Source: Natrialba aegyptia DSM 13077
Lineage (GTDB): Archaea; Halobacteriota; Halobacteria; Halobacteriales; Natrialbaceae
NCBI RefSeq assembly: GCF_000337535.1
Contig: NZ_AOIP01000031.1
Span: 224,943 to 288,942, forward strand
Length of the DNA stretch: 64,000 nt
Direction: 5' to 3'
Both the position numbers and the translations under genes were made by a program. Shown in pieces: positions 1,991 through 16,780 of the stretch; the first letter of the stretch is position 1, and each line of letters opens with the position of its first letter. The notes beneath the pieces are model-generated. The model saw only the letters and a program-made list of their open reading frames with translations, made no database searches and was not told the DNA's origin.

Positions 1991-2090
1991 CTAATTGGTA
2001 ACTGGTAGTGACTTATATCTATCGCTGACTGTCGGGAAGGATCGCTGCGATCACTCTCGCCGACGAGATAGAACTCGAACCACAATTCCG

Positions 2091-2098
2091 TAATACAA
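2091..2098. repeat. left target-site duplication TAATACAA
   Basis: TAATACAA immediately precedes the left terminal inverted repeat and is repeated exactly at 3320-3327 immediately after the right one. An 8-bp duplication is the mark of a transposition event and is the size produced by several IS families. Confidence 0.85.
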
Positions 2099-3319
2099 GA
2101 GGGTGTCATAGAACAGTTTTCATCCCCTCTCTCTGTGACTACCCGACAAACGGTAAGTCCAGGGCAAGCAGTTACCGAAGCGGCTATCGATCTATCCGAA
2201 CTATGCCAAAAGCTACCTGCTGAATATAGAGGTTGTAGGCAGCAGCCGATTAGCGTTTGTTTCCATGCTGATCAAGTGAATGTACCGGTCACGCGAACTG
2301 CTCACTGGTTGATAAGCTCAGCCTGTTCGTCAAGTATATCTTTGTGTTCCTCAGTCGCATCTTCGTGAGCATCCACATCGCCTTCGGCACGGTCAGAGAG
2401 TTCCTGCAACCTGCCTTCCTTTCCGTATAGGACGACAGTGTCGCCAGGATGTATCTCCGTATCTGATCCTGGGGCACCGATGTAGTCGCCATTTCGCCGA
2501 AGGCCGAGCAAGAGCACACCCTCTTCAGCGAGGTTCATTTCGTCGGCGCTATTGTTCGAAAGCCAGTCGTCCTGGTTCACGTCTACTTCAGCGACCTGAT
2601 ACTCGCTTTGGAGTCCGAGCATCCGGGTATAGTCGTTGATCGCCAGGTCTGTCGTCCTCTCGAGAACCCGTTCAATGAGTGGTGTAACGGCTTCATTAAG
2701 CAACTGACTCTTCGCGGTGGCAATAATCAGAAGCAAGCCACCAAGAACGTAGACGAGCGTAAGCGAATTTTCGCCACCAGAGTTGATGAACGACAGGAGA
2801 AGCGACGTGAGTGCACCCACGACACCGATACTCCCGATGCGAATTAACCATAAGATAGTGGATCGTCTGATGGGTTCGGAAACCGCGAATTCGGCCTCTT
2901 CAGTTGTAAAACCGGCCCCAGAGAACGCCGATGCGGCCTGAAATGTGGAGACATCGGGCGACAGTCCGGTCATCCGAAGCGCGACTGAGCCGATCCGGAT
3001 GACTAGTAGAGAGAGTGCGAAGATGATGAAGACCGAGAAAATTTGGGTTGTTGCAACCATGTGCGTCACCACCATGGTGCTGTAAAAGAGTCCTCGTACG
3101 TTTCACAGTGCACTGATAGTACCCTATACTGAGCGACTACCACCTTCTCAAACCGAACTGAATCTTGTGCTGCGTTTGCGCTGTGTATTCAGCACGGATC
3201 TGCCAACATCACCAATAGATGATAGAAGTACTAGCGTTCGATTCACAAATGTAGTGAACGGATAGTTCGCTCCAGATTGGGTGAAAAGAACGCCATGCGG
3301 ATCGTTCTATGACACCCTC
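2099..3319. mobile_element. transposase-less insertion cassette (TIR element with TrkA-C passenger)
   Basis: The element is 1,221 bp. Its ends are perfect 16-bp inverted repeats, GAGGGTGTCATAGAAC at 2099-2114 and its complement at 3304-3319, flanked by the 8-bp direct repeat TAATACAA. The interior is clearly more AT-rich than the surrounding DNA and holds one gene, a TrkA-C membrane protein, and no transposase frame on either strand. This fits a mobile insertion cassette or MITE-like element moved in trans by a related IS. Identical flanking duplications suggest a fairly recent insertion. About 65 bp of its left end is shared with a shorter relic at 17449-17590. The parent IS family cannot be named from this window. 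Confidence 0.85.
2302..3075 (-). CDS. membrane protein with TrkA-C (RCK_C) domain
   Basis: This 257-residue protein has about three membrane segments in residues 8-130. A loop reading FQAASAFSGAGFTTEEAE resembles the TrkH/KtrB pore-loop type (SAF-x-x-AGF). The C-terminal region, residues about 155-225, is a TrkA-C ligand-binding domain ending in GDTVVLYG. Proteins of this build are thought to sense or regulate potassium or other ion flow; the ion here is unknown. It is the only gene inside the inverted-repeat element and is transcribed toward its left end. Codon use is less GC-rich than in its neighbours, which fits acquisition. The first ATG is used as start; an in-frame ATG five codons later is equally possible. 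Confidence 0.75.
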   Translation of the reverse strand: MVVTHMVATTQIFSVFIIFALSLLVIRIGSVALRMTGLSPDVSTFQAASAFSGAGFTTEEAEFAVSEPIRRSTILWLIRIGSIGVVGALTSLLLSFINSGGENSLTLVYVLGGLLLIIATAKSQLLNEAVTPLIERVLERTTDLAINDYTRMLGLQSEYQVAEVDVNQDDWLSNNSADEMNLAEEGVLLLGLRRNGDYIGAPGSDTEIHPGDTVVLYGKEGRLQELSDRAEGDVDAHEDATEEHKDILDEQAELINQ

Positions 3320-3327
3320 TAATACAA
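3320..3327. repeat. right target-site duplication TAATACAA
   Basis: This is an exact copy of the octamer at 2091-2098, directly abutting the right inverted repeat of the insertion. It also lies about 45 bp upstream of the promoter of the frameshifted lipoprotein gene. Confidence 0.85.
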
Positions 3328-3370
3328 TGCTATTCGCTCGGCAGAGATTTTTATATACTGATAAATAAAA

Positions 3371-3381
3371 TACTTATATTT
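3371..3381 (+). promoter_or_regulatory. TATA box of the frameshifted lipoprotein gene
   Basis: An AT-rich block containing CTTATATT is centred about 26 bp before the ATG at 3401, the normal distance for a leaderless haloarchaeal start. It supports 3401 as the original start codon of the broken gene. Confidence 0.55.
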
Positions 3382-3400
3382 TCTCCTGTATGTGATTGTT

Positions 3401-3831
3401 ATGGTGACTCGCCGGTCCTTGCTCGCCTCGACGACAGCCCCGCCAGCGCAACCGTCGCCGGCTGTTCGGCCGTCCTCGGTGAAGAAACCGATCACCACTA
3501 CGTGGATATGCTCAACGGAAGCGAGGAATCCCACGTCTTTGCGGTCACCATAACCAACGACGCCGGTGAGACGCTCTTCCATCGGACATACGATCTTCCA
3601 GCCTGGAACGGCGACGAAAACAGGGTCATCGACGGTTCCCCTGCGTCGGTTGCCGTCGCCGTTGACGACGGTGAACCCACACAATTCCCGTGGGCTCCCC
3701 GAGAGGGTCGTCATGCTAATTCAGAAGAGTGCTCCCAGGGAACGTCTGCAAGTCTGAGCATCTACTATGATCCACAGTCGGGCGACGGAGTAACCCCGAT
3801 CTACGGGTGCGAAATCGCTCAAGATCAGTAG
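3401..3831 (+). pseudogene. small secreted lipoprotein gene, frameshifted in the signal peptide
   Basis: From the ATG at 3401 the frame reads MVTRRSLLAST, a Tat-type signal start. The signal end and lipobox (SATVAGCSAVLG, Cys at 3463) and the whole mature domain lie in the next frame, running to the stop at 3831. A one-base deletion near 3430-3440 explains this, and no start codon exists upstream in the second frame. The mature part (FAVTITNDAGETLFHRTYDL, PASVAVAVDDGEP, two further Cys) resembles the intact lipoprotein at 58767-59207, so both belong to one family of about 145 residues with a beta-rich domain. A sequencing error or programmed shift cannot be excluded. Function unknown. Confidence 0.65.
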
Positions 3832-3839
3832 TTCGTCAT

Positions 3840-3876
3840 TAGTACGACTACGAGTACGAGTACGAGCACAAGCACT
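3840..3876. repeat. short ACGAGT/ACGACT hexamer repeat
   Basis: Imperfect tandem copies of a hexamer (tACGACT, ACGAGT, ACGAGT, ACGAGC, ACAAGC) follow the stop of the broken lipoprotein gene. It is noncoding. Confidence 0.5.
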
Positions 3877-3986
3877 GTTCGGATGAGACAAGAGTCACCC
3901 CGAAGTAGCGCACCGAACTCGGATACTACGTCCGGGCGATTCCGCCGAAAATCAATTTTTGTCGTCGATTCCGCACACCGAGCGCA

Positions 3987-4250
3987 CTACTCGAAGACCG
4001 CCGAGTTCTCCTCGAGTTCGTCGAGATCGGCGAGGAGTTCTTCGATGTCTTCGGGGAACAGCGAGACCTGAATCTCGTTGCCGTCGGCGTCGTCGAAGAC
4101 GAGTTTGACGCGCTTGTCGCCGAACTCGCGGGCCTCGGCGGATTCGACGTCGAACAGTTTGATCGTGGCTTCCTTGTTGTTGGGGCCGACGTTCTTGATC
4201 GCGCCGTCGTTGAGCTCTACCATGAAGTCCTCGAGCGTCAGTGAGAGCAT
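3987..4250 (-). CDS. conserved haloarchaeal protein, 87 aa
   Basis: This acidic 87-residue protein begins MLSLTLEDFMVELNDG and ends with a Glu/Leu-rich amphipathic helix (PEDIEELLADLDELEE). The ATG at 4250 is preferred because a TATA box (TTTTTTAT, minus strand 4271-4278) lies at the distance expected for a leaderless transcript; an internal ATG at 4223 is the alternative. No catalytic motif or metal site is visible. The middle part looks like a small beta-sheet domain. It is not part of an operon. Function unknown. Confidence 0.75.
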   Translation of the reverse strand: MLSLTLEDFMVELNDGAIKNVGPNNKEATIKLFDVESAEAREFGDKRVKLVFDDADGNEIQVSLFPEDIEELLADLDELEENSAVFE

Positions 4251-7917: not shown

Positions 7918-8418
7918 ATGTTACGCTCGTTCAACGGGATGGCCCCGCGCGTTGCTGACTCGGCCTACGTCGATGACACCGCGGTCGTCATCGGCGATGT
8001 CGTCATCAAAGCCGACGCGAGCGTCTGGCCGAACACCACGCTTCGCGGCGATCACGGCACGATCGTCGTCGGCGAACGCGCGAACGTGCAGGATAACGCC
8101 GTCCTTCACGAGGAAGCCGAACTCGAACCCGCCGTCACGGTCGGCCACAGCGCGATCGTCCACGACGCCACCGTCGCCGAGGGCGCACTGATCGGCATGA
8201 ATGCGGTCGTTCTCGATGACGCACACGTCGGCGAGGGAGCTGTCGTTGCCGCCGGTAGCGTCGTCACCGAAGGAACCGACGTTCCCCCAGCCACGCTCGT
8301 CGCCGGAACGCCCGCCGAACCGAAGGGCGAGGTCGACGATCCTGAACTCGAGGCCACGGCGACCCACTACGCAACGCTCGCGACGCAGTACGCCGACACC
8401 GCCGAGCGAATCGACTGA
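7918..8418 (+). CDS. gamma-class carbonic anhydrase family protein
   Basis: This 166-residue protein is a left-handed beta-helix built of hexapeptide repeats (GDVVIKADASVWPNTTLRGD, VGERANVQDN). The gamma-carbonic-anhydrase residues are visible: R43 and D45 in LRGD, Q58 in NVQDN, and zinc-ligand candidates H64, H77 and H82. The loop between the first His and GHSAIVHD is short, as is common in haloarchaeal members, so the activity could be CO2 hydration or that of a related YrdA/CaiE-like protein. The ATG at 7918 gives the family start MLRSFNG. Confidence 0.85.
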   Translation: MLRSFNGMAPRVADSAYVDDTAVVIGDVVIKADASVWPNTTLRGDHGTIVVGERANVQDNAVLHEEAELEPAVTVGHSAIVHDATVAEGALIGMNAVVLDDAHVGEGAVVAAGSVVTEGTDVPPATLVAGTPAEPKGEVDDPELEATATHYATLATQYADTAERID

Positions 8419-8473
8419 ACGCCCTCGAAATCGGAGGGAAACGCTGATACAACTACCGTCCGAACCCTCGCGC

Positions 8474-8971
8474 ATGAGCAATACGTCCTGGACCGACCGC
8501 ATCGTCGGCGAGCGGATGGCCGTCGATCAGGAGTTCTCCTCGCAGATCGCGAGTTCGCGATTCTCGAACCAGCAGTGGAGTCTGATCATGACCGCGACGG
8601 AGTTCGAGATCGAACACCCCGACGACCCAGACCGGGCGCAGATCGTCGCAGATACGGACAAGCTCGAACAGATCATTCCCGAACTCGAAAACGTCCAGTC
8701 GGGGATGGGGGCGATGGCTGGGGCGGGTGGCTCCGGTGCCGGCGGTAGCGGCGGTTCGGGTTCCGGGGGACTCGTCGACTCGATCAAGGGCGCACTCGGG
8801 ATGGGTGGCGGAGGCGCGAACGATCACGCCGAGAAACGCGAGGCGGCCGAACGGTTGACCCAGACCTACGCCGACGAGTTGCAGTCCCACCTCGAATCGA
8901 AGGGGCGCTGGGAGTCCGTTCGTGAGGCCGCTGTCGTAACGAGCGAGGACGATACCGAAACGAATAGCTAA
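8474..8971 (+). CDS. DUF5799 family protein
   Basis: This 165-residue haloarchaeal protein has the characteristic start WTDRIVGERMAVDQEF, followed by FSNQQWSLIMTATEFEIE. Residues about 76-100 are a flexible Gly/Ser linker (GGSGAGGSGGSGSGG), and the rest is helical. No enzyme motif is visible. It follows the carbonic anhydrase gene by 55 bp on the same strand and may share its transcript. Function unknown. Confidence 0.8.
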   Translation: MSNTSWTDRIVGERMAVDQEFSSQIASSRFSNQQWSLIMTATEFEIEHPDDPDRAQIVADTDKLEQIIPELENVQSGMGAMAGAGGSGAGGSGGSGSGGLVDSIKGALGMGGGGANDHAEKREAAERLTQTYADELQSHLESKGRWESVREAAVVTSEDDTETNS

Positions 8972-9164: not shown

Positions 9165-9308
9165 TCAGTCGCCCGCGTGGAACAGCGTATACTCGCTCGT
9201 CTCGTAGATGTTGATGAGTTCCATGATCAACTCGTCGTTCGACTCGTCCTCGATGCGCAGTTCGTCCAACCGTTCGATCGTTTCCTCGTCGAGTTCAATC
9301 TGTGGCAT
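9165..9308 (-). CDS. DUF7557-type small protein (47 aa)
   Basis: This 47-residue protein reads MPQIELDEETIERLDELR then DDELIMELINIYE and FHAGD. The pattern, a short strand followed by two helices, is that of the small haloarchaeal ribbon-helix-helix-like proteins (DUF7557 type) that may bind DNA or act as antitoxins. No toxin gene is adjacent: the downstream gene on this strand is over 200 bp away and the upstream neighbour is divergent. It is too short for most gene finders, but its codon use is typical of the genome. Confidence 0.7.
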   Translation of the reverse strand: MPQIELDEETIERLDELRIEDESNDELIMELINIYETSEYTLFHAGD

Positions 9309-9413
9309 ATGTCCACGCACGGCATCAGCGGGCAAAAACATCGCGGGCTACTGGATGAACGCTCGGCAAACGCACCAGAATCCCACAGCACCTTTACGGA
9401 CGCTCCTCGACGT

Positions 9414-9716
9414 ATGAGTATGGCAGATACAACCGACGTGGAGACGACGACCATCTCGATCAGCGCCGACGACGACACCACGGACGAGGTCACAGTCCCC
9501 GCCGGACTCCTCGATCTCGTCGCGGAGGGCGACCAGACCGCAGCCGAAACGGTCGGCGACGTAACGCTGCTCTCGTTCGCCAGCCGCGCCCACCACATCG
9601 TCCACCACGGCGAGGAAACCGATCCCGAACTCGACGCCCAGGAAGAACGCATCATGGAACTCTTCGAGGAGCGCTTCGGCGTGACCTTCGGGGAGGCGAC
9701 CGGCCACCAGCACTAA
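9414..9716 (+). CDS. DUF7545-type haloarchaeal protein
   Basis: This 100-residue acidic protein reads SISADDDTTDEVTVPAGLLD, then an AHHIVHHGEE stretch and the C-terminal helix FEERFGVTFGEATGHQH. The pattern matches a small conserved haloarchaeal family (DUF7545) of unknown function. The His-rich C-terminus could bind metal; that is inference. A CTTTACGG box about 22 bp upstream indicates a leaderless start at 9414, with a second ATG two codons later. It is divergent from the DUF7557-type gene, with 105 bp between. Confidence 0.7.
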   Translation: MSMADTTDVETTTISISADDDTTDEVTVPAGLLDLVAEGDQTAAETVGDVTLLSFASRAHHIVHHGEETDPELDAQEERIMELFEERFGVTFGEATGHQH

Positions 9717-9769: not shown

Positions 9770-12700
9770 CTAGGTCCCCGTCTCGTTCGGAGCAGCACCG
9801 TTCGTCTCCTGCTGAGCACCGGGCTCGATCGATTCGGAATCGGGAATGGCCGTGTCGGCTATCGCGTTATCTTCCGTCGTGTCGTCCCCCGGTGAAGCTT
9901 CAGCAGCCGACTCGTCGGCGGACTCCGCCTCAGTTCCGTTCGTCGGCGGCGATCCATCGGTAGCGTCCTCGGTGGTCGACTCGTCCGGCGACGCTCCGGC
10001 GGGCGATCCGCCGTCGCCGTTCTCCGTCGGGGCCTCTTCGATCGGCTCGTCAGCCGGCGACTCGTCGGCCGGGACCGCAATGCCTTCGATCGTCACCGAC
10101 GCCTGTTCGTCCGCCGTCGCGACGGTGTGCGTCGACTCACCCTCCGGAATCGTCGACGAGAACGTCAGCACCGTCGTTTCACCCGGATCGAGTTCAGTTT
10201 CGTCCTCGGCGATCGTCGTTCCGTCGACGCTGTAGGTAACCGGCTGGCTACCCGGTCGATCACCCGTGTTCGTGATCGTCGCGGCGACGGTCACGTCCTG
10301 CCCGGCGACGAAGGACGAGGGTGCCGAGAGATCGACGATACTGAACTCGGCGGGATCGGCCGGCTCCGCGACGGTGACGGTCGTCTCAGCGGTTTCGTTC
10401 TCGGTCGCGACCGTCGCCGCGTACTCGCCGGGCTCGAGTTCACTCGTCTCCGCACTCAGCGAGACCGTTTCGGTGGCAGCGGGGTCGAGCGCGACGCTCG
10501 TCGAATCGACGACGGTGCCGTCGAGCGCGAGTTCCACGTCCTGCTCGCCAGCTTCGTCCCCGACGTTTTCGATCAGCGCGTCGACCTCGAGCGGATCGCC
10601 TTGCTCGACCGGCGAGTTCGTCCCGTCGATTTCGACGGCGAACGCGGCGGGATCGGGCGGCTCTTCGATCGTCACCGTCGTCTCTGCGGTCTCGTTCTCG
10701 GTTGCGACCGTCGCCGTGTACTCGCCGGGCTCGATCTCGGATGTCTCCGCACTCAGCGAGACCGTTTCAGAGCTATTGGCATCGAGTTCGAGAGCGGTTG
10801 CATTGACGACGGTACCGTCGAGAGCGAATTCCACGTCCTGCTCGCCGGTTTCGCCGCCGACGTTCTCGACGAGCGCCTCGACCTCGAGCGGGTCGCCCTG
10901 CTCGACCGGCGAGTTCGTCTCGGTGATCTCGACCGCGAACGCGGCGGGGTCGGTCTCCCCGAGGATCTCTCCTGCCGTCGGCGTCTCGGCGATCAGCGGC
11001 TCCTCGTACCCGAAGTGAGCGAGGTCGAACTGCCAGACCAGCCGTTCGTCCTCGTCCGCGGGCGTCCACTCGACGGTGAACTCGTCCTCGCCGGGCTCGA
11101 GCGCGTCGATCGGTTCCTCGTCGGTCGTCCCGTCGATGAACTCGCTGATTCCCGGCAGCGCGACGTCGTTCGGGTTCTCGGAACCGAACGTCACATCGAT
11201 GACGGGCGCATCCGGATCGGCGTCGACGACGGTCGTCTCCTCGACGGCGATTGCGGGCTCCGCCGGCCGAACCTCCTCGTTGCACGCCTGCGCCTGCGGA
11301 TTCGGATGGTCGATGCCGGCGAACGGAATCGCCTCCGGCGAGCTGATGCCGGAGATGTAGGTGCCGAAGGTGCCGTACTCGGGCACGCCGACGGTGACGG
11401 TCTCGCCGTCGAACTCGTCTTCCGCGCCGACCTCGAAGACGATCGTTCCCGTGAACGGCGCTTCGGTGTCCTCGCCGATCCTGACGAAGTCCTCGATGAT
11501 CGTGTTCCCGAACCCGCCGGCGGCGTAAAAGCCCGTGCTCGCGGCGATCCGCTCGCCCTCCTCGAACGTCCCCGTCACCTCGGCCCGCGTGCAGTTGGTG
11601 AACTCGACCTGGAACGACTCGTCGACCGTGTACTCGAGCAGCTCCGTTTCCAGCGTCCGGTTCTCCTCGACGGCGACGAGCGACACCTCGAGCAGCGAAC
11701 TCGATTCGAGCGGCGTCTCGAGGTCGATCGTTTCGTTCTCGATCGCCTCGCCGGCGTCGAACGGTTCCGTCTCAGCGAGTTGCGTCCCGTTCTCGTCGGC
11801 GACCGTCAGCGCGTAGTCGACCGACGCGTTGGCCGTCTCGATCGTCAGCGACTCGCCGTCGCCGGTCTGGTCGCCGACGGACAGGACGGCCTCGGGATCG
11901 ATCGGCTCGTCGATCGTGAACTCGATCGTCTCGTTCGCGAGCGCCTCGTCGTCGTCCGCCGCTCGAACCGAGACCGCGATGGGGCTATCCTCCGTGATCG
12001 GCGGCTCGAGTTCGAGTTCGAACGCCGAGACGGCGTCGCCCGCATCGATGGTGTCGCTGTCGACGCGCTCGCCGTCGTAGGTGGCGCTCACCAGGTAGTC
12101 GACGGAGGCGTTCGCCTCGTCGACGAGTAGCGTCTCTCCGTCGCCGGTTTGGTCGCTCACCGAGAGGGAGGCCTCGCGCCCGTCGGGAGCGTCGGATTCA
12201 TCGACGGTGACGAACGCCGTATCGAGTACCGGCGCGCCGCCCTCGGTGACGTACGGGTCGTCGTCGCCGCCGGCTCGCTCGACGTAGCGGAACGTCTCGT
12301 CGCCGGTCGTATCATGGTGGACGGCCGCGGTGAGCGCCTGGTCGGCCTCGAGCGGTTCCTCGAGTTCGATTGCGACGTTTTCGTGGTCGCCGGGCTCGAG
12401 GTATGATGAGACGCCGATCACGTCGTCGGGGTCGAGAGCCGCGGTCGTATCGTTGTAGATCGCGACGAAGCCGCCTTCCGAAAGGGACACCGCGTCGATT
12501 TCGACGGTCTCGCCCGTCGTGTTCTGGTTCGAGAACGAGATCGAGGCGTTGCCCTCGAGTTCGTCGATCTCCTCGATACGCTGGGTGACCTCGATCTCGA
12601 CGTACTGGACGAGCCGAGTCTCGTCGTCGATCCCTTGCTGGACGGCGTAACTCGTCGTCTCGGCTGCGGTTTCGGCGGTCAGCGTCTGAAGTTGCGTGAG

Positions 12701-14233
12701 GGAGATCCGCTGGGACTGGATCGCCCGTGCCGTCTCCTGACTCGCGCTCGTGGCCGCCACCTGTAGCTGGGTGACGGTCGCCTCCTGGTACTGGGTCAGT
12801 GCTCCCTGCGCACTCCCCGCGGCGAGGCGCTGGACCTGCGTAACGGTGACGACCTGCGTCTGAATCACGGCCCCCTCGCCGGCACCGCGGGCGACGGCCT
12901 GAATTTGCTCGATCTCGACGACCTGGTACTGGATCGCCGACTCGACCGCCCCCTTCGACGCACCCGTCGCGGCGGCCTGGATCTGCGTGATCGACACCTC
13001 CTGGTGCTGGACGAGCACGCCCTGCGCACCGCCGTCAGCCGCCGCCTGAATCTGCTCGACGGTGGCCTCCTGCGACTGGGTGATCGCCCCCGTCGCCGCG
13101 CCGTGTGCGGCCTCTTCGATCTTCGCCGTCGACAGCCGCTGGACCTGCTCGACGCGGACCGACTGCACCTGCTTGATCGCACCCGCACCCGCACCCCGCG
13201 CTGCGGATTGGGTCTGCTCGACCGAGACGGTCTGTTGCTGGACGAGCGCGCCCGCAGCCGCCCCCTTCGCCGCCGTCTGGATCTCCTTGATCGTCGCCCG
13301 CTGGCGCTGGTCGGCCTCGATCTGCTGGTCTTGCTCGAGCGCCGTCTCCGTGCTCCCCTCGAGCGTCCCCGCCGCAGCACCCGCCGCCGCGTGCTGTGCG
13401 TGCTCGACCGGTATCGCCTGGCGCTGCTCCGCGGTGAGTTGCTGGTACTGTGCCAGCGCACCATAGGCAGCCCCCTGTGCCGCCTCCTGAACCGTCGGCT
13501 GGTCGTCCACCTCGTGCTCGCCGGCCGAACTCGCGGCACCCGTCGCAGCTCCGTACGTTGCGACCTGGAGCTGTTCGACCGTCACGCGCTGTCCCTGGGC
13601 GAGCGCTCCGTGTGTCGCGCCCCAGGCCGCACTCTGCAACTGACTCGCAGTCGCCGTCTGGTGCTGTGCGAGCGCACCGTCCGTCGCCCCGGCGATGGCG
13701 GCCTGAATCTGCGTCGCGTTCACTCGCTGTTCCTGAATCAGCGTCCCGTGTACCGCACCCGTTGTCGCCGCCTGTACCTGCTGCGCGTCGGCTTCCTGGT
13801 ACTGTGCGGCGGTTGCGTTGGCAGCGTCCATCGCAGCCACGCGCTGGTCCTGTGTCACCTCGACGCCCTGAGCCTGTACGAGTTCAACCCCGCGATCGAC
13901 ACCCTCCTCGACGGCGGTTTCGAGCTCCTGAGTGAGGATGGCCTGGTCCGGTTGCGGGTGCGTGCCATCGGCGGTGACGCCGTCACGATCCGTCGCCGTC
14001 GAATCGACCGTCGCAAGCGGTGTCGGCGACGATTCCGCGCCGCCTCCGTCGCTAGCAACGCCGGGCGTCGAAGCGGAGGGCGAAGACGCGGGTGCGTCGC
14101 CGAACTCGGTGTTCGGCTCGTCGCTCCCCACGCCGGGACGGTCAGTTCCGAGCAGCGCGACTGCGGCCATGCTCGTGATCAGCAGACCCGCGACCGCGAC
14201 GACTGTGACTGTTCGTGTGCGCGCCCGCGTCAT
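9770..14233 (-). CDS. giant secreted Gln-repeat / DUF7282 / CARDB surface protein
   Basis: This 1,487-residue protein has a hydrophobic signal segment at about 9-29 and a Ser/Pro/Thr-rich linker to about 95. Residues about 130-530 contain roughly fifteen 23-residue repeats with consensus AAxGAxxGAL-x-QxQ-xVTVEQIQ, each combining a GxxxG-type Ala/Gly helix with a Gln-rich strand-like half. Residues about 563-900 carry DUF7282-like domains (SFSNQNTTGETVEIDAVSL; SVSDQTGDGE). After a further domain with two cysteines, three CARDB-type beta-sandwiches follow (about 1130-1390), then an acidic Ser/Thr tail. No C-terminal PGF sorting signal or membrane helix is present, so it is either released or held by its N-terminus. 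A surface or biofilm role is inference. Confidence 0.85.
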   Translation of the reverse strand: MTRARTRTVTVVAVAGLLITSMAAVALLGTDRPGVGSDEPNTEFGDAPASSPSASTPGVASDGGGAESSPTPLATVDSTATDRDGVTADGTHPQPDQAILTQELETAVEEGVDRGVELVQAQGVEVTQDQRVAAMDAANATAAQYQEADAQQVQAATTGAVHGTLIQEQRVNATQIQAAIAGATDGALAQHQTATASQLQSAAWGATHGALAQGQRVTVEQLQVATYGAATGAASSAGEHEVDDQPTVQEAAQGAAYGALAQYQQLTAEQRQAIPVEHAQHAAAGAAAGTLEGSTETALEQDQQIEADQRQRATIKEIQTAAKGAAAGALVQQQTVSVEQTQSAARGAGAGAIKQVQSVRVEQVQRLSTAKIEEAAHGAATGAITQSQEATVEQIQAAADGGAQGVLVQHQEVSITQIQAAATGASKGAVESAIQYQVVEIEQIQAVARGAGEGAVIQTQVVTVTQVQRLAAGSAQGALTQYQEATVTQLQVAATSASQETARAIQSQRISLTQLQTLTAETAAETTSYAVQQGIDDETRLVQYVEIEVTQRIEEIDELEGNASISFSNQNTTGETVEIDAVSLSEGGFVAIYNDTTAALDPDDVIGVSSYLEPGDHENVAIELEEPLEADQALTAAVHHDTTGDETFRYVERAGGDDDPYVTEGGAPVLDTAFVTVDESDAPDGREASLSVSDQTGDGETLLVDEANASVDYLVSATYDGERVDSDTIDAGDAVSAFELELEPPITEDSPIAVSVRAADDDEALANETIEFTIDEPIDPEAVLSVGDQTGDGESLTIETANASVDYALTVADENGTQLAETEPFDAGEAIENETIDLETPLESSSLLEVSLVAVEENRTLETELLEYTVDESFQVEFTNCTRAEVTGTFEEGERIAASTGFYAAGGFGNTIIEDFVRIGEDTEAPFTGTIVFEVGAEDEFDGETVTVGVPEYGTFGTYISGISSPEAIPFAGIDHPNPQAQACNEEVRPAEPAIAVEETTVVDADPDAPVIDVTFGSENPNDVALPGISEFIDGTTDEEPIDALEPGEDEFTVEWTPADEDERLVWQFDLAHFGYEEPLIAETPTAGEILGETDPAAFAVEITETNSPVEQGDPLEVEALVENVGGETGEQDVEFALDGTVVNATALELDANSSETVSLSAETSEIEPGEYTATVATENETAETTVTIEEPPDPAAFAVEIDGTNSPVEQGDPLEVDALIENVGDEAGEQDVELALDGTVVDSTSVALDPAATETVSLSAETSELEPGEYAATVATENETAETTVTVAEPADPAEFSIVDLSAPSSFVAGQDVTVAATITNTGDRPGSQPVTYSVDGTTIAEDETELDPGETTVLTFSSTIPEGESTHTVATADEQASVTIEGIAVPADESPADEPIEEAPTENGDGGSPAGASPDESTTEDATDGSPPTNGTEAESADESAAEASPGDDTTEDNAIADTAIPDSESIEPGAQQETNGAAPNETGT

Positions 14234-14714
14234 CGCCGACCACCGCGACGCCGGCCGCCATCACCGTCGCATCCGCCATCCCGCCGTGACCGCCGCGAGT
14301 ACCTGTCCCTCGAACGCGAACGCCGACAGGATACGCCCCGTCTCGCGCCTCGAGTAGAGCACCGGTATCGCCGTCCCGCTGTGCGATTCTCCCGATCCAA
14401 ATGGTATGCAGTACCACCCCACATCGTTTTCCATCACCCGACCGAATCCGCGCATAAGCTCGCCGGTCGTTTCAGCACCCGCGCTGACACAATCACTTGT
14501 TACGCTATGGCAGAGACAAGCGAGATGCGACTCGCCGGCGGACAACGCGAGTTCAGCGGCGACTGGCAGCACTACGCAGCGACGGTGACGGTAACGGACT
14601 GCGACAGGAAGCGACCGCTTTCGAACCCGCGCTGTCTCGAAGCGGGCGAGAATGAGGCTATGAGTGGGTGTAAACCGGCTTCCGCTCCCGCCGATCGTCG
14701 CGGTCGGTCCCACC
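14234..14714. other. intergenic region, no supported gene
   Basis: About 480 bp lie between the divergent giant surface protein gene and the biotin operon. Both strands have open frames, but these have no family resemblance and poor codon pattern. The region presumably holds the promoter of the surface protein at its left end. Confidence 0.45.
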
Positions 14715-14718
14715 TCGA

Positions 14719-14744
14719 AAACCGAAGTTTTGATCACGGTTTAC
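14719..14744 (+). promoter_or_regulatory. putative BirA operator of the bioYMN operon
   Basis: An inverted repeat, AAACC at 14719-14723 and GGTTTAC at 14738-14744 separated by 14 bp, matches the established bacterial and archaeal BirA operator form (TGTAAACC-N14/15-GGTTTACA). It lies 16-41 bp before the bioY ATG, over the expected promoter, so bound BirA-biotinyl-AMP would block transcription. Confidence 0.6.
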
Positions 14745-14759
14745 GAACGAGGCGGTGGC

Positions 14760-15350
14760 ATGGAAACAGATCAGCGTGAGGTTGAACTCGTCGGCGACGC
14801 CGCCGTGCATCGATTCGCTCGCGCGGCGTTGCTCGCGGCGCTTCTCGGTGCGGTTGCACCGGTTGCGATTCCGCTGCCGTTCTCGCCGGCTCCGATCACG
14901 CTGCAAGTTCTGTTCGTCTTCCTCGCCGGACTCGTTCTCGGACCGGTCTGGAGCGCGTTTTCGATGGTCCTCTATCTTATCGCCGGTGCCGTCGGAGTAC
15001 CTGTCTTTGCCGGGTTTAACGCGGGCCTCGGCGTTCTGTTCGGCCAGAGCGGCGGCTACCTCTGGTCGTACCCGTTCGCGGCGGCGCTTATCGGGCTCTT
15101 CGTTCATCGCGGAACCGACGTTCGAGACCCGGCGAACGTCTCGCTGCCCGTCGTCGTCACCGCACTCGTTGCCGCAACGACTCTCATCTACGGGATGGGG
15201 TCGGCGTACATGAGCCTGATACTGGAACTGAACGCCTGGGAGGCGGTTACCGCCGGTGCACTGCCGTTCATCCCCGGTGAAATCGTAAAGATCGCCGCCG
15301 CGATCGCCATCGTCAGAAGCGGCCGCCTCTCGCCGACCCGAGTTCGATGA
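14760..15350 (+). CDS. bioY: biotin transporter substrate-binding subunit BioY
   Basis: This 196-residue integral membrane protein has about six helices. It has the BioY family pattern PFSPAPITLQVLFVFLAGL, then GAVGVPVFAGF and GYLWSYPFAA, which form the biotin-binding S component of the ECF transporter. The ATG at 14760 is chosen because it starts just before the family N-terminal helix and follows the operator and promoter. Its stop overlaps the start of the ATPase gene by four bases, so the transporter subunits are translated together. It should import biotin for the ligase encoded at 27411. Confidence 0.93.
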   Translation: METDQREVELVGDAAVHRFARAALLAALLGAVAPVAIPLPFSPAPITLQVLFVFLAGLVLGPVWSAFSMVLYLIAGAVGVPVFAGFNAGLGVLFGQSGGYLWSYPFAAALIGLFVHRGTDVRDPANVSLPVVVTALVAATTLIYGMGSAYMSLILELNAWEAVTAGALPFIPGEIVKIAAAIAIVRSGRLSPTRVR

Positions 15351-16039
15351 TCGAGTTCAGATCCGTCACGTACGGCTTCGACGACGTGTCCGTCCTCGAG
15401 GACCTGTCGCTGACGATCGAAAACGGAGAGTTCGTCGTTCTCGTCGGCCCGAACGGCAGCGGGAAGACGACCCTGCTGCGCCACTGCAACGGGCTTCTCA
15501 CGCCCGACAGCGGCACCGTGCTGGTCGACGGCACGCGGGTCGAAGCGGACCTGATCGCCGCACGCTCGACCGTCGGCATGGTCTTTCAGCACCCGCGCGA
15601 CCAGTTCGTCGCCGCGACCGTCGGCGCGGACGTGGCGTTCGGCCCGGAGAACCTTGGACTCGATCGCCCGGAGATCGACAGCCGCGTCACGGCCGCCCTC
15701 GAGGCGGTGAACATGGCCGACCGAGAGGACGACCGCATCGAAACCCTCTCGGGCGGCGAGCAGGCCCGCGTCGCCATCGCGGGCGCGCTCGCGATGAAAC
15801 CATCGTACCTCGTCCTCGACGAACCCTTCACCGGTCTCGATACGCCCGCCCGCCGCTCCGTCCGCTCGCGACTCGAATCGCTCTCCGACCGCGGGACGGG
15901 CGTTCTGCTGGCGACCCACGACCTGCGCGAGATCCGCGACCTCGCAGACCGCGTGATCGGTATGCAGGACGGCCAGATCATCATCGACGAGCCACCCGAA
16001 CAGGCACTCGACGACTGTGCTGAACTCGCGATCCTGTGA
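15347..16039 (+). CDS. bioM: biotin ECF transporter ATPase BioM (EcfA-type)
   Basis: This 230-residue ABC ATPase has Walker A GPNGSGKTT (about 34-42), a Q-loop in VFQHPRDQFV, which is the EcfA-type Q-loop, signature LSGGEQ, Walker B YLVLDEPF and switch His in THDLRE. It powers the BioY-BioN membrane part. The start overlaps the bioY stop and the next gene begins 21 bp downstream, giving the operon order S component, ATPase, T component. Regulation is presumably by the BirA-type operator upstream of bioY. Confidence 0.93.
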   Translation: MIEFRSVTYGFDDVSVLEDLSLTIENGEFVVLVGPNGSGKTTLLRHCNGLLTPDSGTVLVDGTRVEADLIAARSTVGMVFQHPRDQFVAATVGADVAFGPENLGLDRPEIDSRVTAALEAVNMADREDDRIETLSGGEQARVAIAGALAMKPSYLVLDEPFTGLDTPARRSVRSRLESLSDRGTGVLLATHDLREIRDLADRVIGMQDGQIIIDEPPEQALDDCAELAIL

Positions 16040-16060
16040 TCCGTCGCCTCCGTCCAGAGT

Positions 16061-16780
16061 ATGCTCACCTACGTTCCCGACGATACGCTCGCCCACCGAC
16101 TCGACCCGCGGTCGAAGCTCGCCGTCCAGCTCGGATTCGCCGCGGCTGCACTGACACACACCGGTCCGCGTGCAATCCTCGTACTCTCGGCGCTCGCAAT
16201 CGGAATGCTGGCCGCTGCCGGCGTCTCACCGATCCGGGCGGTCATCGCCGCCCGCTACGCGCTCGTCATCCTGTCACTGGCACCGCTGCTCGCCGCCCTC
16301 ACGCTCGGCCCACCATGGATCGAGACCGACGCCGGACTCACCACCGCTCTCGCGAGCTATCGAGTGTTGCTCGTGCTCCTCGTCAGCACGGCTGCCGTCC
16401 GCTCGACGCGCGTCCGCGACTCCCGAGCCGCCATCCAGCGGACGATCCCCGGCCGTCCCGGCCACCTTCTCGGTATCGGCGTCGCGCTTCTCTTTCGATT
16501 CCTCCCCGTTCTTCGGGCGGACATCCAAACGATTCGAGACGCCATGGCCGCCCGACTCGGCGCCCAGCGACACGCCCACGAACGCGCCGGAACGATCGCA
16601 CTGCTCGGACTCTCGCGCGCGTTCGATCGAGCCGACCGCCTCTCGCTCGCTCTCCGAGCGCGCTGTTTCGCCTGGAACCCGACGCTGCCTCCACTCTCGT
16701 TCTCTCGCCTCGATATACCCGCATTACTACTCGCGACGACACTGTTGTGCTCGACGCTACTGACAACGATTCCGTTGTAA
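16061..16780 (+). CDS. bioN: biotin ECF transporter transmembrane subunit BioN (EcfT-type)
   Basis: This 239-residue membrane protein has about five helices. It starts with the EcfT-typical LAHRLDPRSKLAVQLGF and ends with a coupling region containing SLALRARCFAWNP, related to the A-R-G/A-R-C motifs that contact the ATPase. It is the third gene of the biotin operon. Only one ATPase gene is present, which fits a dedicated BioMNY transporter with an ATPase homodimer. Confidence 0.92.
   Translation: MLTYVPDDTLAHRLDPRSKLAVQLGFAAAALTHTGPRAILVLSALAIGMLAAAGVSPIRAVIAARYALVILSLAPLLAALTLGPPWIETDAGLTTALASYRVLLVLLVSTAAVRSTRVRDSRAAIQRTIPGRPGHLLGIGVALLFRFLPVLRADIQTIRDAMAARLGAQRHAHERAGTIALLGLSRAFDRADRLSLALRARCFAWNPTLPPLSFSRLDIPALLLATTLLCSTLLTTIPL

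Follow-up and report, generated by a model that had tools for sequence, protein, structure and literature searches.

A conserved glutamine-rich repeat array near the N-terminus of a putative haloarchaeal surface protein

The curlin CsgA is a secreted protein with repeats of approximately 19-23 residues, in which invariant Gln residues are thought to form ladders. The repeats of the ice nucleation protein are 16 residues in length. According to PMC3196904, these surface-associated repeats have been modelled as a beta-helix, and glutamine ladders are discussed for them. Alpha-solenoid and LRR-type domains are likewise built from short repeats in which the packing positions are conserved, and in repeat-variable adhesins the copy number differs among close relatives. 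Haloarchaea in addition possess proteins with CARDB and DUF7282 domains. Here we describe a gene from Natrialba aegyptia DSM 13077 (contig NZ_AOIP01000031.1), found in a stretch of 64,000 nucleotides (positions 224,943 to 288,942), hereafter the window. Its product contains both of the latter domains, together with a Gln-rich repeat array that lies outside either family. The array resembles CsgA in its putative secretion, repeat length and invariant Gln, and differs from it in lacking an invariant Asn, in having an Ala/Gly core with a GxxxG motif, and in being fused to Ig-like domains. Compared with the ice nucleation protein, the repeats are longer (23 residues), and only the array has the helix-like GxxxG core. 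Unlike alpha-solenoid and LRR-type domains, its invariant residues are Gly and Gln rather than Leu, and no match to such families was found in Pfam. Repeat number and order are fixed in the orthologues, position by position within the family, which is unlike the repeat-variable adhesins, although the number does vary among carriers in other families; the CARDB/DUF7282 part can be replaced by others from one carrier to the next.

The repeat gene (9770-14233, minus strand, with the stop codon at 9770-9772) encodes 1487 residues. All of the features listed here lie on the minus strand. Residues 8-30 (14144-14212), a segment that is hydrophobic in carriers, are predicted to be a signal peptide or signal anchor; a pattern search of this N-terminal segment revealed a motif related to TSxxALPLLGGG in 23/30 family proteins. 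An acidic linker leads to the array, in which two degenerate units recognized by alignment (residues 99-146; 13796-13939) precede 14 repeats scored by profile scan and conservation (residues 147-506; 12716-13795). DUF7282 follows at residues 563-676 (12206-12547; Pfam PF23951, 119.6 bits against a curated cut-off of 27, E 9.9e-35). Two similar modules, SVxDQTGDGExL...ANASVDY, were seen by eye in the translation between DUF7282 and CARDB (residues ~690-880; 11594-12166) and had no Pfam match at E<=0.1. The three CARDB domains occupy residues ~1091-1385 (10079-10963; PF07705 in three stretches, 54.2 bits against a cut-off of 22.7, E 1.7e-14), and composition and sequence mark the remainder as an acidic low-complexity C-terminal tail (9773-10078). 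The original prediction, made from the DNA alone, had joined the repeats to DUF7282 and three CARDB domains, which these matches bear out; it had also proposed a surface protein, and the order of domains is consistent with a secreted or surface-located product. A C-terminal hydrophobic anchor is absent from the 1487-residue protein, as judged from its sequence and from an anchor scan of the orthologues. Two ORFs lie opposite the gene on the plus strand (12905-14779, 624 residues; 10127-12130, 667 residues) and probably arise from the codon usage and composition bias of the repeat gene.

Self-similarity of residues 91-560 is highest at a lag of 23, reaching 0.84 per residue (the maximum at any lag in 200 shuffles was 0.04), with secondary peaks at lags of 31 and 54. 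The 14 repeats of the profile scan have first anchor residues from 159 to 496, and counting by eye with the two degenerate leading units gives 16, close to the fifteen that had been predicted. The uniform spacing of 23 residues did not hold; it occurs in 8/13 gaps, the others being 26 (2), 31 (2) and 39 (1). A tandem repeat search at the DNA level (TRF) detected only the CARDB duplication (period 297, copies 82% alike) and not the Gln repeats, so the latter are old and diverged.

Each repeat divides into a core and an arm. The core, AAxGAAxGAL, is spaced in the manner of a helix, and the arm, QxQxVxVxQxQ, alternates strictly every two residues. In an alignment of 29 sequences, GxxxG and QxQ stand in invariant or nearly invariant columns, just as foreseen. 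When positions are numbered from the first Gly of GxxxG over 1069 unique 23-residue units, information is high at 0, 1 and 4 in the core and at 8, 10, 12, 14, 16, 18 and 20 in the arm; it is lowest at 19, 22, 3 and 7, so that the variable positions of the core are spaced 3, 4, 4, and next lowest at 9 and 11. The period of two in the arm gives a spectral value of 0.90 (p ~0.001, 5000 shuffles), and the 100-degree value of the core is 0.41 (p 0.14); a helical period is thus not significant from conservation alone. The longer spacings arise in the arms. The 31-residue gaps (residues 258-285, 13379-13462; residues 351-378, 13100-13183) each hold an arm with one added 8-residue module, and the 39-residue gap (residues 289-324, 13262-13369) an arm with two, all on the minus strand. 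These octads are close to V-T-V-E-Q-R-Q-R (consensus V-x-V-E-Q-x-Q-x) and keep the alternation, giving Gln-rich arms of approximately 11, 19 or 27 residues. Arms lengthen mainly, not solely, by eights; smaller shifts (spacings of 26, 25 and 22) are located where the core ends or within degenerate units. Growth by eights and a period of two fit an extended chain, and a helix does not easily explain the arm. The predicted Gln ladder and Ala/Gly helices are in keeping with this anatomy, in that Gln alternates as in a ladder on an extended chain, and the spacing in the Ala/Gly part is helix-like; for the same two reasons the solenoid suggested at that time is still among the possible folds, and the assembling fibre suggested with it, whether amyloid-like or a helical bundle, is conjectural.

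The array matched nothing in the family collections. No Pfam family reached its curated cut-off, either with the window protein or with 29 arrays scanned individually, and the 21 weak matches of these arrays at E<=10 did not include TPR, HEAT, LRR, pentapeptide or similar repeats. The curlin repeat, which we take to be PF07012, matched neither the whole protein at E<=0.1 nor the 29 arrays at E<=10. NCBIfam held no matching family, among PHROGs a match was obtained with the CARDB region alone, and a sequence profile of the array found no match among PDB sequences (best E 1.2). The profile search proposed originally hence returned no characterised family, and the claim that the repeat was undescribed stands for all four collections. 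In the open-licence PubMed Central literature we found no description of the repeat and no mention of DUF7282. The array domain is therefore new to the family catalogues, and its function we infer from the features described here.

Conservation of the array is strong. The nearest named relative, Natrialba taiwanensis, is 94% identical over residues 91-560, and in 28 orthologues conservation is higher in the array than in any other part of the protein, with very few gaps. Compared with distant orthologues, repeats at the same position share 67% identity and those at other positions 40%, and in 288/330 cases a repeat is matched best by its counterpart at the same position, from which it follows that the order and number of repeats are fixed and that the repeats predate the split of the family. 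In four pairs the dN/dS of the array was 0.17-0.24. In two more distant pairs it was 0.17-0.20, compared with 0.21-0.42 elsewhere in the protein, and in two close pairs it did not clearly differ from that of the other domains. Together with the conservation among orthologues and the invariant columns, these ratios support strong purifying conservation of the array.

Searches at E<=0.001 with the single sequence matched 30/61 relatives. Profile searches at the same threshold, which covered genomes within the phylum, matched 112/391 genomes drawn from the class and 20/392 drawn from the phylum, the latter all in the same order. The array is present in 105/125 genomes of the window's family and is patchy in four other haloarchaeal families (25/28, 3/9, 15/146 and 7/170 genomes). 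No array match was found in plasmid records, nor any relative in viral contigs. In another genome an array fragment with an in-frame TGA (G747:C5:131967-132194) is probably a decayed copy. Thus every family library searched lacks a strongly conserved domain that a large haloarchaeal family carries in most of its genomes.

In the carriers examined the array always lies near the N-terminus, behind a hydrophobic segment, and is followed by varied C-terminal parts. Among 33 carriers outside the orthologue group, matches at E<=0.001, some of them under curated cut-offs, were to DUF7282 (10), TSP3 repeats (7), beta-helix/NosD (7), DUF4399 (5), the phospholipase C C-terminal domain (3), a carboxypeptidase-regulatory domain (3), CARDB (2), CAP (1) and others; eight carriers were also scanned singly. 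The N-terminal module is thus constant while the secreted domains attached to it are exchanged, which suggests a shared role, either mechanical or in targeting. In other families several carriers have a C-terminal hydrophobic stretch followed by basic residues, which none of the orthologues examined within the family has.

In composition, too, the array differs from the rest of the protein. Exposed surfaces of halophile proteins are usually acidic. In the window protein Asp and Glu make up 10.0% of the array (Gln 17.4%) and 22-28% of the later domains and tail. Their content is lower in the array than in what follows in 63/63 carriers, the means being 12.5 v 27.6% in 30 proteins and 9.0 v 25.1% in 33, after ORFs of less than 500 residues or with short arrays had been dropped beforehand. 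Given the usual acidity of halophile surfaces, this low acidity suggests that the array is probably largely buried, through packing or assembly.

We propose, with a probability of about 0.5, that the product is a secreted, probably membrane-tethered surface protein, the N-terminal array of which folds into a structural module not described before and serves as a stalk or scaffold. In each repeat AAxGAAxGAL would form a short Ala/Gly helix, and the chain would then continue as an extended arm with Gln, Gln, Val, Val, Gln and Gln alternating on one face. Neighbouring repeats would pack through their GxxxG faces and their Gln/Val faces within one chain, possibly also between chains, and the array would lie near the membrane, as a stalk or as a scaffold for assembly, and display DUF7282 and the Ig-like CARDB domains at a greater distance. 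A bolder version, which we advance only tentatively, is that Ala/Gly helices and octad-growing Gln/Val arms constitute a new two-part fold restricted to haloarchaea and building a Gln-laddered, non-acidic surface stalk or fibre. Such a scaffold or matrix protein might avoid the usual need for an acidic surface in saturated salt. The repeat rule, a core and an arm growing in octads, is testable, the array is a target for structural studies, and it challenges the view that proteins of halophiles have to be acidic. To our knowledge, few genes are known in archaea for structural proteins of the envelope or of the biofilm matrix; if the array assembles, it would be a candidate.

Structure prediction, which had been recommended for the array, did not yield a confident fold. 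AlphaFold2 with six Natrialba sequences gave a helical array with a mean pLDDT of 43 (the best region, model residues 11-70, reached 60-74, and the N-terminal Gln arms were helical), and with five repeats and internal repeats as extra rows it gave strands with a mean pLDDT of 37. The two models contradict each other in secondary structure and neither supports a fold. For repeat proteins, PMC11795689 reports that AlphaFold2 can give confident but unrealistic beta-solenoids. An arrangement of all-helical hairpins with each Gln segment within one helix, read from the first model and from couplings at lags of 3 and 4, was dropped because the arms alternate with a period of two, couple at 2, 4 and 6, and lengthen by eights.

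Covariation bears on the secondary structure and on two ways in which the repeats might be arranged. Pooled couplings (1184 adjacent-repeat pairs, effective number 446) peak at lags of 3 and 4 in the core and of 2, 4 and 6 in the arm. With 100 orthologous sequences only, the arm couples at lag 2 (0.70 and 0.91) and little at lag 3 (0.00 and 0.36), and the core is weakly helical. One possible arrangement, about which we are doubtful, is a parallel alpha/beta solenoid in which each 23-residue repeat forms one coil and equal positions stack into in-register Gln ladders. The alternating Gln/Val face fits this, as do the pooled peak at lag 23, absent at 22 and 24, and the orthologue-only coupling of the same position one repeat apart (0.49+-0.12 against a background near 0.2); however, similarity of equal columns can also produce peaks at the exact lag, and the pooled couplings of adjacent repeats fall on the antiparallel diagonal. 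This diagonal reaches 0.75, compared with a mean of 0.16 and a maximum of 0.36 in 100 re-pairings within positions, and 100 random re-pairings never exceeded -0.27. It argues for an array of hairpins, a similarly tentative alternative, in which neighbouring cores run antiparallel and arm-turn-arm tips are centred on V-[TSDN]-V. The diagonal appears, in the same register, both when the window's family is taken by itself (0.44) and when the other families are (0.71), couplings occur across the turn (10/-7, 10/-5, 8/-7 and 5/-2), and most repeats have T, S, D or N within that triplet. On the other hand, the pooled signal is driven largely by rare, lineage-specific residue pairs, degenerate repeats may lose conserved Gln columns together, and with orthologues only the antiparallel value (0.42+-0.16) is about equal to the parallel one. 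Covariation thus does not settle the choice between parallel and antiparallel topology.

Two further explanations concern function. That the protein is a functional amyloid or fibre of the haloarchaeal biofilm matrix, with the Gln arms of different molecules stacked as cross-beta structure, seems unlikely to us. The alternating Gln-rich arms of up to 27 residues and the low acidity would suit it, and PMC4180959 states that biofilms of Haloferax volcanii stain for amyloid; the same paper proposes another candidate gene, HVO_1403. The array is moreover missing from most genomes of the two families in which it was found in 15/146 and 7/170, the fixed number of repeats suggests a defined fold, and Pfam gave no curlin match. 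A surface component linked to the uptake of vitamins or metal chelates is very improbable, although genes for BioY, an ABC ATPase and CbiQ (a biotin-type ECF transporter; 14664-16780, plus strand) are divergent from the repeat gene in the window and in 26/29 loci of its family. We rejected a function based on these neighbours: BioY adjoins the array gene in 0/28 loci of other families, neighbours vary by family, and vertical synteny alone accounts for the association. In another haloarchaeal family an ABC ATPase lies near the array gene in 4/9 loci, with a FecCD permease where scanned (permease at L113 2331-4650; ATPase at L114 10914-14851), which would favour a link with uptake. The part in adhesion, matrix or amyloid suggested originally may apply, but the stalk or scaffold reading remains the one that we prefer.

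On its other side the repeat gene is convergent with plus-strand genes for DUF7545 (9177-9716; kept in 27/29 loci) and DUF5799 (8201-8971; kept in 23/29 loci). In L113 and L114 an ORF resembling a secreted binding protein, with a PGF-type C-terminus, was noticed by eye between the transporter genes and the array gene. In 5/9 loci of that family the opposite strand carries a signal-peptide-peptidase gene close to the array gene (PF06550 was matched in L110 and L114, and L111, L113 and L127 have similar ORFs). The peptidase might process the N-terminal hydrophobic segment of the array protein. Elsewhere in the window, the GC content falls to 52% at positions 2001-4000, compared with ~63% on either side; the minus strand here contains an ORF of 257 residues (2302-3075) which, by eye, resembles a membrane protein whose end is similar to TrkA-C.
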